DNA of 64,000 bases from Stenotrophomonas sp. WZN-1. GTDB taxonomy: Bacteria; Pseudomonadota; Gammaproteobacteria; Xanthomonadales; Xanthomonadaceae. Below, one piece after another: positions 4,528 through 60,394 of this stretch. The position numbers were made by a program, and so were the translations under genes. Location: the NCBI RefSeq assembly GCF_002192255.1, contig NZ_CP021768.1:3986001-4050000 (forward strand). Direction: 5' to 3'. Numbering within the stretch: position 1 is the stretch's first letter; each line of letters opens with the position of its first letter. A model generated the notes under the pieces. The model worked only from the letters and a program-made list of their open reading frames with translations, did not search any database and was not told the origin of the DNA.

Positions 4528-4540
4528 GGCGCCCGAATGC

Positions 4541-4735
4541 AGGAGAGAGGCGCCGCGCTGGCGCCCGCCGAAGGCGCAGGCTCCCATGATCGCTCAGGCC
4601 GGTGGGCTGGAATCCCACCAACCATGCATTCGACTCGCCGAGCTGGAGAGAGGTCACCGGGCACGCCCGGGACGATCCGCCGAAGGGGCACGCGGCCTAC
4701 GCCGCTGAACTCTCAGGCAAAAGGACAGCGGGAGC
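4541..4735 (+). ncRNA. Tandem glycine riboswitch
   Basis: Two glycine aptamers lie in series upstream of the channel gene at 4821. The first begins with AGGAGAGAGGCGCC, has the CGCCGAAGGCGCAGG core, and then CGCTCAGGCC. The second begins with CTGGAGAGAGG, has the CCGCCGAAGGGGCA core, and ends with CTCTCAGGCAAAAGGACAG, the near-invariant end of this RNA class. In known examples glycine binding switches on glycine-cleavage or transport genes. No clear Rho-independent terminator follows, so control may be at translation initiation. The boundaries are approximate. Confidence 0.9.
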
Positions 4736-4820
4736 GGCACCGGTCATCGTCATCCCGTCATTGCGCAGGCAGTGGCGGTGGTCGCGCATGGCCGGCCCCA
4801 CCGCGCCCGGAGCCTGCCCC

Positions 4821-5635: not shown

Positions 5636-6709
5636 TCAGGCGGCTTCGGACACCTTCACGTCGCGACGGGCGCGCACGGCCGCAGCCAGTCGCTCCAGCA
5701 CCGTCACGGTGGTGTCCCAGTCGATGCAGCCATCGGTGATGCTCTGCCCGTAGACCAGCGGCTGGCCTTCCACCAGTTCCTGGCGGCCACCAACCAGATG
5801 GCTCTCGATCATCACACCAACGATGCGCTGTTCGCCGTCTTCCAACTGAACGGCGATGTCCTCGATCACCTTCGGCTGGTTTTCCGGGTTCTTCAAACTA
5901 TTGGCATGGCTGGCGTCGATCATCAGGCGCGTCGGCAGCTTGGCCTTGGCCAGCACCTGGCAGGCATCGGCGACGCTGCCTGCGTCGTAGTTCGGCTGCT
6001 TGCCGCCGCGCAGGATCACATGGCAATCCGGATTGCCGGTGGTCGATACGATGGCGGTACCGCCCTGCTTGGTGACCGACAGGAAGTGATGCGGATTGGA
6101 CGCTGCACCCACCGCGTCGGCGGCGATCTTCACGTTGCCATCGGTGCCGTTCTTGAACCCGACCGGGCACGACAGCCCCGAGGCCAACTCACGATGCACC
6201 TGGCTTTCGGTGGTGCGTGCACCGATCGCGCCCCACGCCACCAGGTCGGCGATGTACTGCGGCGAGATCACATCGAGGAATTCGACACCGGCCGGCAGGC
6301 CGAGCTTGTTGATGTCGCGCAGCAGGCCGCGGGCGATGCGCAGGCCCTTGTCGATCCTGAAGCTGCCGTCCAGGTCCGGATCATTGATCAGGCCCTTCCA
6401 GCCCACCGTGGTGCGCGGCTTCTCGAAGTACACGCGCATGACGATTTCCAGTTCGCCGGCCAGCGCATCGCGCAGCGGCTTCAGGCGCTGGGCGTACTCG
6501 ATGGCGGCCTTCGGGTCGTGGATCGAGCATGGGCCCACCACCACCGCCAGGCGGTCGTCACGGCCATGCAGTATCTGGTGCAGGGCCGCGCGCGAGGCGC
6601 TGACGGTGTCGGAGGCTTCATCGTCACAGGGCAGCATCGCCAGCAGCTGGGCAGGCGGTGTCAGCGGTTCGATGGTGCGGATACGCAGGTCGTCGGTGTG
6701 CGGGGGCAT
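5636..6709 (-). CDS. aroG: 3-Deoxy-7-phosphoheptulonate (DAHP) synthase, type I
   Basis: The 357-residue enzyme joins phosphoenolpyruvate and erythrose 4-phosphate in the first step of the shikimate pathway. Diagnostic segments are VVVGPCSIHDPKAAIEYA, RVYFEKPRTTVGWKGLINDP, GARTTESQVHRELASGL, VGFKNGTDG and IDASHANSLKNP, which include the metal-binding Cys and His and the PEP-binding Arg/Lys residues. Length fits the E. coli AroF/G/H type. The start MPPHTDD is preceded by a GGAG site about 10 bases upstream. The gene lies directly behind an aromatic-residue leader peptide and terminator, so it is probably controlled by transcription attenuation. Which aromatic amino acid inhibits the enzyme cannot be told; the symbol denotes the family. 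Confidence 0.92.
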   Translation of the reverse strand: MPPHTDDLRIRTIEPLTPPAQLLAMLPCDDEASDTVSASRAALHQILHGRDDRLAVVVGPCSIHDPKAAIEYAQRLKPLRDALAGELEIVMRVYFEKPRTTVGWKGLINDPDLDGSFRIDKGLRIARGLLRDINKLGLPAGVEFLDVISPQYIADLVAWGAIGARTTESQVHRELASGLSCPVGFKNGTDGNVKIAADAVGAASNPHHFLSVTKQGGTAIVSTTGNPDCHVILRGGKQPNYDAGSVADACQVLAKAKLPTRLMIDASHANSLKNPENQPKVIEDIAVQLEDGEQRIVGVMIESHLVGGRQELVEGQPLVYGQSITDGCIDWDTTVTVLERLAAAVRARRDVKVSEAA

Positions 6710-6755: not shown

Positions 6756-6785
6756 AAAAAAGCCGCCAGGTTCGCTGGCGGCTTT
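6756..6785 (-). terminator. Attenuator terminator of the aroG leader
   Basis: On the minus strand, AAAGCCGCCAG and CTGGCGGCTTT form an 11-bp stem with a 5-base loop, followed by six U residues. It lies between the leader peptide stop (6809) and the aroG start (6709). Its 5' arm contains CCGCCAG, which can pair instead with CTGGCGG inside the leader coding region (6832-6838). A smaller 6-bp hairpin (CTGAAG/CTTCAG) sits between them. Confidence 0.88.
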
Positions 6786-6808
6786 CGGGAATGCGTCTGA
6801 AGCTTTCT

Positions 6809-6886
6809 TCAGGGTGAGCGCAGTCCTTCCTCCGCCAGTGGCTTCGGAAAGTAATACCAGTAAAAGCGGGTAGCGGCTGCGTTCAT
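6809..6886 (-). CDS. Aromatic leader peptide of the aroG attenuator (25 aa)
   Basis: The translated peptide is MNAAATRFYWYYFPKPLAEE followed by GLRSP. Codons 8-13 read Phe-Tyr-Trp-Tyr-Tyr-Phe, six aromatic residues in a row. This is the expected design of an attenuation leader: a ribosome starved for charged aromatic tRNA stalls there, leaves CTGGCGG (codons 17-19) free to pair with the terminator's 5' arm, and lets transcription run into aroG. No clear Shine-Dalgarno sequence precedes the ATG. The likely promoter places the transcript start only a few bases upstream, so the leader may be read from a nearly leaderless mRNA. Sensing all three aromatic amino acids at once would suit the first shared step of the pathway. 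Confidence 0.88.
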   Translation of the reverse strand: MNAAATRFYWYYFPKPLAEEGLRSP

Positions 6887-6894
6887 GGGATGTA

Positions 6895-6922
6895 TTGATA
6901 GCACAGCTTTTGCGCAGTGCAA
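6895..6922 (-). promoter_or_regulatory. Putative promoter of the aroG leader
   Basis: On the minus strand, TTGCAC (6917-6922) and TATCAA (6895-6900) are spaced by 16 bases. They are the only reasonable sigma-70 pair near the leader ATG. The -35 overlaps a small dyad, TTGC-N5-GCAA. Confidence 0.45.
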
Positions 6923-7004
6923 AATGTTTCATCCGCAACTGGGGACACGGTTCAGTGAGGTGCACTCCAGCGCTGCCTACGCGGCAGCCGCCACGCAAAG
7001 CCGC

Positions 7005-58642: not shown

Positions 58643-60394
58643 TTGTCCGATAACACTTCCGAAACCGGCAGCGCCGATGCGCCCGCCGAAAAGCGCGTGC
58701 GCAAGCCCCGCGTGAGCAAGGCCGCCGCTCCGGCAGCCGCCGAAACCAGCGCCGCTCCGGCGCAGCCGACCCTGCCGCTGGCAGCCGCGCCCGAAGCGCC
58801 GGCACCGGCTGCAGCCGCCCCCGCGCCGAGCGCGCCTGCCGCTGAAGCCCCCGCCTCCGGCGGCGGTGAGGGTGGCGAAGGCCGCGAATCCGGACAGCGC
58901 CAGCAGAACCACCAGGGCGGTGGCCAGAACCAGAACCAGGGCCAGGGTCAGAACAACAACCCGTACAACCAGAACGGCCAGCAGGGCCAGGGCAATCGCC
59001 GCGACCGTTTCCGCAACCGTCGCGACCGTGACCGCAACCGCGGTGGCCGTGATGACGGCATGCCGCAGGACGGTGGCGATCAGCAGCCCTTCGTGCCGCG
59101 TCCGCACGCCAATGTGCCGGAAGGCTTCCCGGTCTACTCGCTGAGCGACCTCAAGCGCATGCCGGCACAGAAGCTGCTGGAAATCGCCGAGCAGCTGCAG
59201 ATCTCCGAAGGCGTGGCCCGTGCCCGCAAGCAGGACGTGATCTTCGCCCTGCTGAAGGTGCTGACCCGCCACGGCGACGGCGTTGCCGCCGATGGCGTGC
59301 TGGAAATCCTGCCGGACGGCTTCGGCTTCCTGCGCGCGGCCGAAGCCAGCTACCTGGCCGGCCCGGACGACACCTACATCTCGCCCAGCCAGATCCGCCG
59401 CTTCAACCTGCGCACCGGCGACCACATCTCCGGCCGCATCCGCTTCCCGAAGGATGGCGAGCGCTACTTCGCGCTGAACATCGTCGACACCATCAACGGC
59501 GAGCCGATCGAAGCGTCGAAGAACAAGGTGCTGTTCGAGAACCTGACCGCGCTGTTCCCGCGCCGCCGCTTCACCCTGGAGCGTGGCAACGGTTCGTCGG
59601 AAGACATTACCGGCCGCATCCTCGATCTGATGGCGCCGCAGGGCAAGGGCCAGCGTTCGCTCATCGTGTCCCAGCCGAAGGCGGGCAAGACGATGATGAT
59701 GCAGCAGGTCGCCACGGCCATCACCACCAACCATCCGGACGTGCACCTGATCGTGCTGCTGATCGATGAGCGCCCGGAAGAAGTGACCGAAATGCAGCGC
59801 ACCGTGCGCGGCGAGGTCATCAGCTCGACCTTCGACGAGCCGGCCGCGCGCCACGTGCAGGTGGCCGAAATGGTCATCGAGCGCGCCAAGCGCCTGGTCG
59901 AGCACAAGAAGGACGTGGTGATCCTGCTCGACTCGATCACCCGCCTGGCCCGCGCCTACAACAACGTGGTGCCGAGCTCGGGCAAGGTGCTGACCGGTGG
60001 TGTGGACGCCAACGCCCTGCATCGCCCGAAGCGCTTCTTCGGTGCCGCGCGCAACGTGGAAGAAGGCGGCAGCCTGACCATCATCGCCACCGCGCTGGTC
60101 GACACCGGCTCGAAGATGGACGAGGTGATCTACGAAGAGTTCAAGGGCACCGGCAACAGCGAAGTGCACCTGAGCCGTCGTATCGCTGAAAAGCGTGTGT
60201 TCCCGGCCATCGACATCAACCGTTCCGGCACCCGCCGCGAAGACCTGCTGATCGAGCCGGAGCTGCTGCAGAAGATCTGGATCCTGCGCAAGCTGCTGCA
60301 TCCGATGGATGAGATGGCCGCGATGGAGTTCCTGCTGGACAAGATGAAGAACACCAAGTCCAACGACGAGTTCTTCGGATCGATGAAGCGCTGA
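58643..60394 (+). CDS. rho: Transcription termination factor Rho with a Q/N/G-rich N-terminal extension
   Basis: The 583-residue protein is about 160 longer than E. coli Rho. Residues 1-155 are low complexity: an Ala/Pro-rich stretch, then a Gly/Gln/Asn-rich segment ([20 protein letters not shown]) and an Arg-rich one ([19 protein letters not shown]). The normal protein follows: Rho N-domain ([21 protein letters not shown]), RNA-binding cold-shock fold ([21 protein letters not shown]), Walker A ([12 protein letters not shown]), Walker B ([16 protein letters not shown]) and the R-loop region. The start is a TTG (58643) with AGCGAGG upstream, and the tail runs to it. A strong terminator follows. 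Confidence 0.95.

Follow-up and report, generated by a model that had tools for sequence, protein, structure and literature searches.

Control of DAHP synthase sets the entry of carbon into aromatic synthesis, and in the textbook scheme, as in E. coli, it is exerted by the TyrR and TrpR repressors together with three feedback-sensitive isoenzymes. A short ORF rich in aromatic codons, located ahead of a DAHP synthase gene in a 64-kb stretch of Stenotrophomonas DNA (64,000 nucleotides, the whole of which is referred to below as the window), raises the question of whether this gene is governed by a ribosome-mediated attenuator and, if so, which of the aromatic amino acids are sensed.

The leader ORF and the gene downstream

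The leader ORF occupies positions 6809..6886 of the minus strand, with its ATG at 6886, and consists of 25 sense codons and a TGA stop codon at 6811-6809 (MNAAATRFYWYYFPKPLAEEGLRSP). The six aromatic codons in a row that an earlier note on this DNA had described in a 25-codon ORF can be read directly in the sequence as TTT TAC TGG TAT TAC TTT, encoding Phe-Tyr-Trp-Tyr-Tyr-Phe (6848..6865, minus strand). When all six frames of the window were searched, this was the sole run of at least six Phe, Tyr or Trp codons; one other aromatic run, of five codons, was located at 58938 on the minus strand, and no run of five or more was present in 40 first-order Markov copies of the window. The leader ORF is presumably translated.

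The ATG of the leader lies 177 nt upstream of that of the regulated gene, a type I DAHP synthase gene of the aroG/aroF/aroH family on the same strand (5636..6709, minus strand; TIGR00034, 534.6 bits; PF00793, 314.7 bits), which agrees with the gene assignment previously made and is referred to here as aroG. Its Shine-Dalgarno sequence is GGAG. The best solved relatives of the encoded enzyme are Phe-sensitive DAHP synthases, which we take to be E. coli AroG, and the nearest named locus among the matches listed is from an uncultured Stenotrophomonas, with a protein that is 99% identical. The genome holds one TIGR00034 type I DAHP synthase, encoded by the gene with the leader, and one type II enzyme; a second PF00793 match is presumably the related KDO8P synthase. 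No aromatic-rich short ORF was found in the approximately 1.5 kb before the matched domains of the type II enzyme, pheA and trpE of the same genome, where the best score was two aromatic residues per seven. Convergent with aroG is an ORF assigned by Pfam to the glycine transporters (PF03458), ahead of which a tandem glycine riboswitch is found at 4530-4736 on the plus strand (40.1 and 45.5 bits).

Conservation of the leader and of its start

The conservation of the leader was examined in the Xanthomonadaceae, where an aroG match was obtained in 37 of 61 and 99 of 297 genomes, with 8 genomes common to both sets (128 in total); 127 loci were examined, as one genome whose aroG match has no N-terminus (G336) was left out. 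An upstream aromatic-rich leader ORF, defined by at least four aromatic residues in seven, was present at all 127 loci, which represent 14 genera. A strict test, in which a locus had to have the leader ORF, a terminator with a perfect stem and, past the aromatic block, a leader segment complementary to 5 nt or more of the terminator 5' arm, was passed by 124 of the 127 loci and by none of 635 Markov copies of the same upstream regions. The failures were two loci with an interrupted T-tract (L165 and L197) and one without an exact 5-nt complement (L201). Two leaders in the genus of the window, L131 (-261) and L136 (-263), lie approximately 80 nt farther from aroG, and in the former an additional hairpin-like sequence is found between terminator and gene.

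The search was extended to named loci, with the best 80 of at least 589 confirmed aroG loci being tested. Forty-nine of these 80 passed the strict test (Markov controls 0/395), so that the search for aromatic leaders upstream of aroG homologues, which the earlier note had put forward as a check, was positive both within the family and outside it. Four of the named loci (L031-L034, from Stenotrophomonas, Xanthomonas and [Pseudomonas] boreopolis) are in-family, which leaves 45 of 76 passing outside it, among them loci of Dyella, Rhodanobacter, Burkholderia, Paraburkholderia, Caballeronia, Cupriavidus, Massilia, Rugamonas, Janthinobacterium, Bradyrhizobium, Mesorhizobium, Devosia, Methylosinus and Limnohabitans. 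The remaining 31 of the 80 failed, including all seven enterics (Pantoea, two Serratia, Erwinia, Buttiauxella, Pectobacterium and Entomohabitans) as well as Photobacterium, Enterovibrio, Thauera, Methylotenera and Polynucleobacter; L076, L078, L092, L100 and L105 have an aromatic-rich ORF and failed the test. Phylum-wide, 13 of 40 further loci passed (Markov controls 0/200), a proportion that is not a frequency, as the loci were hand-picked for variety among the matches listed (220 of 397 genomes over the cut-off); two of those that failed, L246 and L250, have aromatic-rich ORFs. The beta- and alphaproteobacterial leaders differ in sequence (MSAKFYFYFFWHLRPLADREG; MITVATSYFWYFSYDSSLAAGGSRSI) and keep the same plan. 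A terminator was found between leader ORF and aroG at 177 of 181 loci, the exceptions being L076, L092, L100 and L165; this set omits 26 of the 80 named loci, which have no convincing leader ORF or, in the case of L031, repeat the family set. Both ORF and terminator, the loss of which in close relatives was to count against the attenuator, are thus kept across the 14 genera and, in plan, in the beta- and alphaproteobacteria.

A covariance model of the leader (R1) was built from Xanthomonadaceae loci, so that its matches at aroG arise partly by construction. Among 119 family genomes, 31 gave one full-length match each (E of at most 3.2e-19), and these are precisely the genomes in which aroG had been matched; no comparable match was found in the remaining 88 genomes or in the rest of the 31 (best 1e-7). 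Weaker matches from a genome scan with strict filters were considered as further leader copies at other genes, and were rejected since the seven loci opened, among the many matches listed, resembled ordinary terminators or noise. Type I aroG was unmatched in 198 of the 297 Xanthomonadaceae genomes, 88 of which were covered by R1 and gave no strong leader match; these 198 may use the type II enzyme instead.

The leaders also differ from the gene that they precede in their choice of codons. In 95 distinct family leader ORFs, Phe was encoded by TTT 213 times and by TTC 52 times (213/265), compared to 3 TTT and 278 TTC (3/281) in the first 350 codons of the aroG genes of 54 of these loci; the corresponding TAT/TAC figures were 78/189 in the leaders and 12/268 in the aroG genes. 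This difference indicates that codon choice at the stall sites departs from that of the downstream gene, and the likely reason would be slow wobble decoding or the keeping of an unstructured stretch.

A -10-like hexamer, TATCAA (6895..6900, minus strand), is located 8 nt before the leader ATG, and a -35-like TTGCAC, a weak match to the consensus (6917..6922, minus strand), is separated from the -10 by 16 nt. Of 108 distinct family upstream regions, 102 have a -10-like hexamer that ends 7-10 nt ahead of the start codon; its sequence is mostly TATCAA, and the motif was defined once the sequences had been inspected. The absence of a Shine-Dalgarno sequence, remarked upon before, is borne out by the energy of the anti-SD duplex, which is +0.9 kcal/mol at the leader ATG versus -6.6 at the aroG ATG. 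Mean energies were -0.40 kcal/mol for the leaders, -1.41 for shuffled leader upstreams and -5.22 for aroG, and values of -5 or below were obtained for 0 of 126 leaders versus 74 of 126 aroG genes. Enterobacterial trpL and pheL use a Shine-Dalgarno sequence. From the -10 spacing and the missing Shine-Dalgarno sequence, the leader mRNA is predicted to be probably leaderless. In Bradyrhizobium and Mesorhizobium loci a -10-like TATATG was seen by eye directly before the leader ATG, and the leaders of both Xanthomonadaceae and Rhizobiales are apparently leaderless; the property would not be general, because the nearest -10-like box seems farther off in Burkholderia and Oxalobacteraceae. In the genus labelled g30, 12 of 16 leaders begin with GTG (L166, L168, L171, L185, L188-L192, L194, L206 and L207), the start still being close behind the -10; to our knowledge, leaderless translation from GTG is unusual in proteobacteria.

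Just upstream of the leader promoter lies a near-palindrome, GTTGC-N3-TG-N-AAC (6926-6939, minus strand), which is a perfect inverted repeat in one genus (e.g. AGTTGC-CAAT-GCAACT in L119). In 96 of 118 distinct family upstream regions the spacing between its core and the -10 is constant to within 1 nt. The number of such sites in the window (1 versus 0.38 expected) is no evidence by itself, and the genome holds 12 compared to 8 for the reversed pattern; a search of this genome and of four relatives gave no lead to a regulator. The element resembles an operator, and repression or activation of aroG may be superimposed on attenuation.

Competing hairpins and the proposed switch

With RNA numbering that starts at the leader ATG (nt 1), the aromatic codons occupy nt 22-39, the sequence CTGGCGG nt 49-55 and the stop codon nt 76-78, followed by a terminator hairpin at nt 101-129 and a U-tract at nt 126-131. 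The hairpin, a strong intrinsic terminator formed by regions 3 and 4 (6758..6786, minus strand), has 12 pairs and a loop of 5, and its U6 tract is at 6756..6761 on the minus strand. Eight core pairs (GCCGCCAG:CTGGCGGC) are followed by three A-U pairs and one G-U pair, and these last four use four of the six Us. The earlier note's 11-bp stem plus U6 was correct in describing a terminator and incorrect in its count, the Us having been counted twice. Folded alone, the terminator has an energy of -19.8 kcal/mol (z -6.1). A consensus scan for promoters and terminators found neither at the leader; the terminator was probably missed because its Us count as stem.

Region 2, CTGGCGG (6832..6838, minus strand), lies inside the leader ORF, 9 nt after the last Phe codon and thus just behind the stall codons as had been proposed. 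It is the exact reverse complement (6838-6832 versus 6781-6775) of region 3, CCGCCAG (6775..6781, minus strand), which is common to antiterminator and terminator. The pairing previously noted is correct, while the antiterminator is much longer than the 7 bp assigned to it: when region 4 is left out, the RNA spanning regions 2 and 3 folds as one long hairpin (-27.6 kcal/mol, z -3.7), consisting in order of CUGGCGG:CCGCCAG, GGA:UCC, UGCG:CGCA and an apex hairpin, CUGAAG-AAAG-CUUCAG (6797..6812, minus strand), which overlaps the leader stop codon. A pause (1:2) hairpin is predicted by folding inside the leader ORF, and the whole leader folds into this ORF-internal hairpin, the apex hairpin and the terminator (-50.3, z -4.1).

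Support for these structures was sought in an alignment of 52 non-redundant sequences of the 128 (A1), from which L186, for which a wrong start had been chosen, was left out. In the terminator 98.1% of cells are paired and four pairs are changed on both sides, a result that none of 500 shuffles equalled and that compares to 0 or 1 such pairs when the helix is slid. For the antiterminator, 77.1% of cells are paired versus 31.7-40.0% in slid versions; ten pairs are changed on both sides, a number reached by 6 of 500 shuffles and by slid versions with 10 and 12, and one slid version has 38 two-sided-change cells versus 35 in the true register. Its core pairs, GGCGG:CCGCC, are kept in 50-52 of the 52 sequences, and because this core hardly varies it is silent on covariation; the U-A pair of CTGGCGG is lost in 27 of 52. 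The inner helices are disrupted in many sequences (75.3% and 63.2% of cells are paired), with one inner pair being G-C in 22 sequences and A-U in 16. In the apex hairpin 63.2% of cells are paired and all six pairs show some two-sided change; it is missing in some genera. The pause hairpin (79.3% of cells paired, two-sided changes in 8 pairs and 30 cells) exceeded all 500 shuffles on three measures, yet slid versions were as rich or richer (12 pairs, 32 cells). RNAalifold predicted the terminator and two further pairs from the alignment, and did not predict the antiterminator, as is expected if the latter shares a strand with the terminator.

The complementarity between regions 2 and 3 was also compared to that in synonymous-codon shuffles, which it exceeds with a pooled z of 10.7 over 42 genus labels; this value treats the labels as independent, which they are not, assumes a GC3 of 0.85, probably counts Xanthomonas and the boreopolis group twice (named and unnamed), and excludes L186 and L105. 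For single leaders, p was below 0.05 in 2 of 149 and below 0.5 in 133 of 149. The first base of the GGCGG core falls on codon position 3 in 35 genus labels, on position 1 in 3 and on position 2 in 2, and the core is absent in 2. Its occurrence in three reading frames, together with the pooled z, suggests that region 2 is kept as RNA and not as peptide.

Taken as a whole, this comparative evidence, namely the conservation of ORF, terminator and antiterminator, is why we regard the attenuator as real, and it is very probable from these sequences that the leader attenuates transcription of the DAHP synthase gene by a ribosome-mediated mechanism. That a chance ORF happens to precede an ordinary terminator or an unregulated structure would be in keeping with the blank result of the consensus scanner, which saw no promoter or terminator at the locus; conservation rejects such a chance ORF, and codon bias, terminator covariation and the Markov controls (0/1230 in all) likewise stand against this explanation, which we hold to be hardly credible.

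From the observed anatomy and its conservation we infer a co-transcriptional switch with a leaderless start and a response to each of the three amino acids. RNA polymerase would start at or next to the leader ATG, and a ribosome would load on the bare 5' end. With plentiful charged Phe, Tyr and Trp tRNAs the ribosome would reach the stop codon and cover the inner antiterminator (about nt 58-88, an assumed footprint), leaving the 3:4 hairpin and the U-tract to end transcription. Should any one of the aromatic charged tRNAs be short, the ribosome would stall within FYWYYF with the RNA from CTGGCGG onward free, the 2:3 antiterminator would form before region 4 is made, and aroG would be transcribed.

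This scheme was examined by equilibrium folding, in which ribosome footprints were imitated by masking nucleotides. In a transcript up to nt 116, the probability of the antiterminator was 1.00 with the ribosome at any of the six aromatic codons, 0.47 with the ribosome on the stop codon and 0.74 without a ribosome. As the short transcript prefers the antiterminator even when no ribosome is present, a decisive part for the pause (1:2) hairpin is not evident. The terminator prevails at equilibrium in the full transcript for every ribosome position tried (P 1.00). Equilibrium folding thus does not reproduce the switch, which would have to be kinetic, region 3 being sequestered by the antiterminator before region 4 is synthesised. 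The same order of events is assumed for trp-type attenuators, in which the antiterminator captures region 3 before region 4 has emerged.

Amino acids sensed and relation to known leaders

Phe, Tyr and Trp are all present somewhere in 125 of 126 family leaders, and the conservation of this mix favours pooled sensing; judging by the codons, the leader probably senses all three aromatic products at once. A more far-reaching reading, to which we assign a probability of roughly 0.45, is that of an undescribed and widespread aroG leader family in gamma-, beta- and alphaproteobacteria, in which a single ribosome reading consecutive Phe, Tyr and Trp codons would act as an OR gate for any aromatic shortage at the shikimate entry. 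Such leaders would serve in place of the enteric TyrR-type control in lineages that lack it, and would be retuned by clades that drop Trp from the block, as at the Oxalobacteraceae and Cupriavidus loci.

An alternative that we find plausible, if not what we would expect, is that the attenuator responds in the main to a single amino acid, with Phe or Tyr the likeliest, and that the other aromatic codons are bystanders. The aromatic block contains a single Trp codon; at the Oxalobacteraceae and Cupriavidus loci compared, the block has Phe and Tyr and no Trp; and the TTT bias of the Phe codons far exceeds the TAT bias of the Tyr codons. There is also a precedent in aroR of C. glutamicum, a leader with Phe-Tyr-Phe before aroF (DAHP synthase), where attenuation is described (PMC11802643, PMC4046766) on which Phe limitation acts and Tyr limitation reportedly does not (PMC11802643). 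It is similar to the present leader as a short aromatic ORF before a DAHP synthase gene that works, or would work, through the ribosome, and C. glutamicum is reported to have leader ORFs that lack a ribosome binding site; as far as the descriptions can be compared, it differs in being actinobacterial, in its reported insensitivity to Tyr and in that those accounts mention no Trp. Against a single amino acid stands the Trp itself, which recurs in those 125 leaders across 14 genera, in a TGG column conserved to 90% or more among the 52 aligned sequences, although the residues ahead of the block vary.

The enterobacterial trpL and pheL leaders (Rfam Trp_leader RF00513 and Phe_leader RF01859) share with the aroG leader a leader peptide, an antiterminator and a terminator with overlapping strands, and differ in that each serves one amino acid on a terminal branch. 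None of the Rfam leader families reached its gathering score at this leader: Phe_leader scored 21.3 bits against a cut-off of 55, and the five matches with E up to 10 did not include Trp_leader. A parallel in logic is offered by ilvGMEDA of E. coli, where one leader senses several end products of a shared pathway, in this case the branched-chain amino acids. Ahead of aroF in Acholeplasma, the uORFC-13-1 motif is likewise a predicted uORF with a terminator before a DAHP synthase gene; as the source describes it, it has Phe codon(s) only and a ribosome-binding site, and it belongs to another phylum (PMC8632094). Attenuation has also been proposed at gammaproteobacterial DAHP synthase genes, as putative attenuators that in two Vibrio species precede DAHP synthase-tyrA operons (Merino database in PMC1173090, Table 7) and as the hypothesis that E. 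coli aroF is attenuated by Tyr (PMC2659441, PMC8632094). These concern another isoenzyme and operon, are predicted or hypothesised, and in the texts cited come with no description of a mixed aromatic leader. In the literature searched we found no published description of a proteobacterial aroG leader with all three aromatics, and an earlier prediction is possible (Neshat 2014, Panina 2001, Vitreschak 2004, Merino database). The kind of regulation is known, DAHP synthase leaders having been reported or predicted elsewhere, and priority for the aroG leader is uncertain.

If pooled sensing is indeed carried out by one leader, as it seems to be, in groups with soil, plant-associated and opportunistic bacteria among their members, these loci constitute a natural experiment on the integration of three amino acids by a single ribosome, as well as on attenuation in which no Shine-Dalgarno sequence takes part; for strains that produce aromatics, the leader is a compact sensor part at hand.

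An additional scenario, which we think unlikely, is that the leader has an additional function in trans, either as a small RNA or through its peptide, as do rnTrpL and peTrpL of Sinorhizobium meliloti. The trpL of that organism is demonstrably leaderless, its transcript beginning with the leader ATG, and termination at the present locus would free an mRNA of approximately 131 nt, probably leaderless, with the rnTrpL architecture (PMC7298713, PMC10117765). Both leader ORFs attenuate, or would attenuate, an aromatic biosynthesis gene; in S. meliloti, according to the same sources, that gene is trpE(G), Trp is sensed and trans functions have been shown. The C-terminal part of the aroG leader peptide is conserved in several genera, which speaks for such a function, but this conservation coincides with the antiterminator strand, whose GGCGG is read in other frames elsewhere. 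Early stops speak against it as well: in L165, L183 and L191 the ORF ends within or soon after the antiterminator strand and the aromatic block is intact. These three leaders are natural tests of the distance that the ribosome must run.
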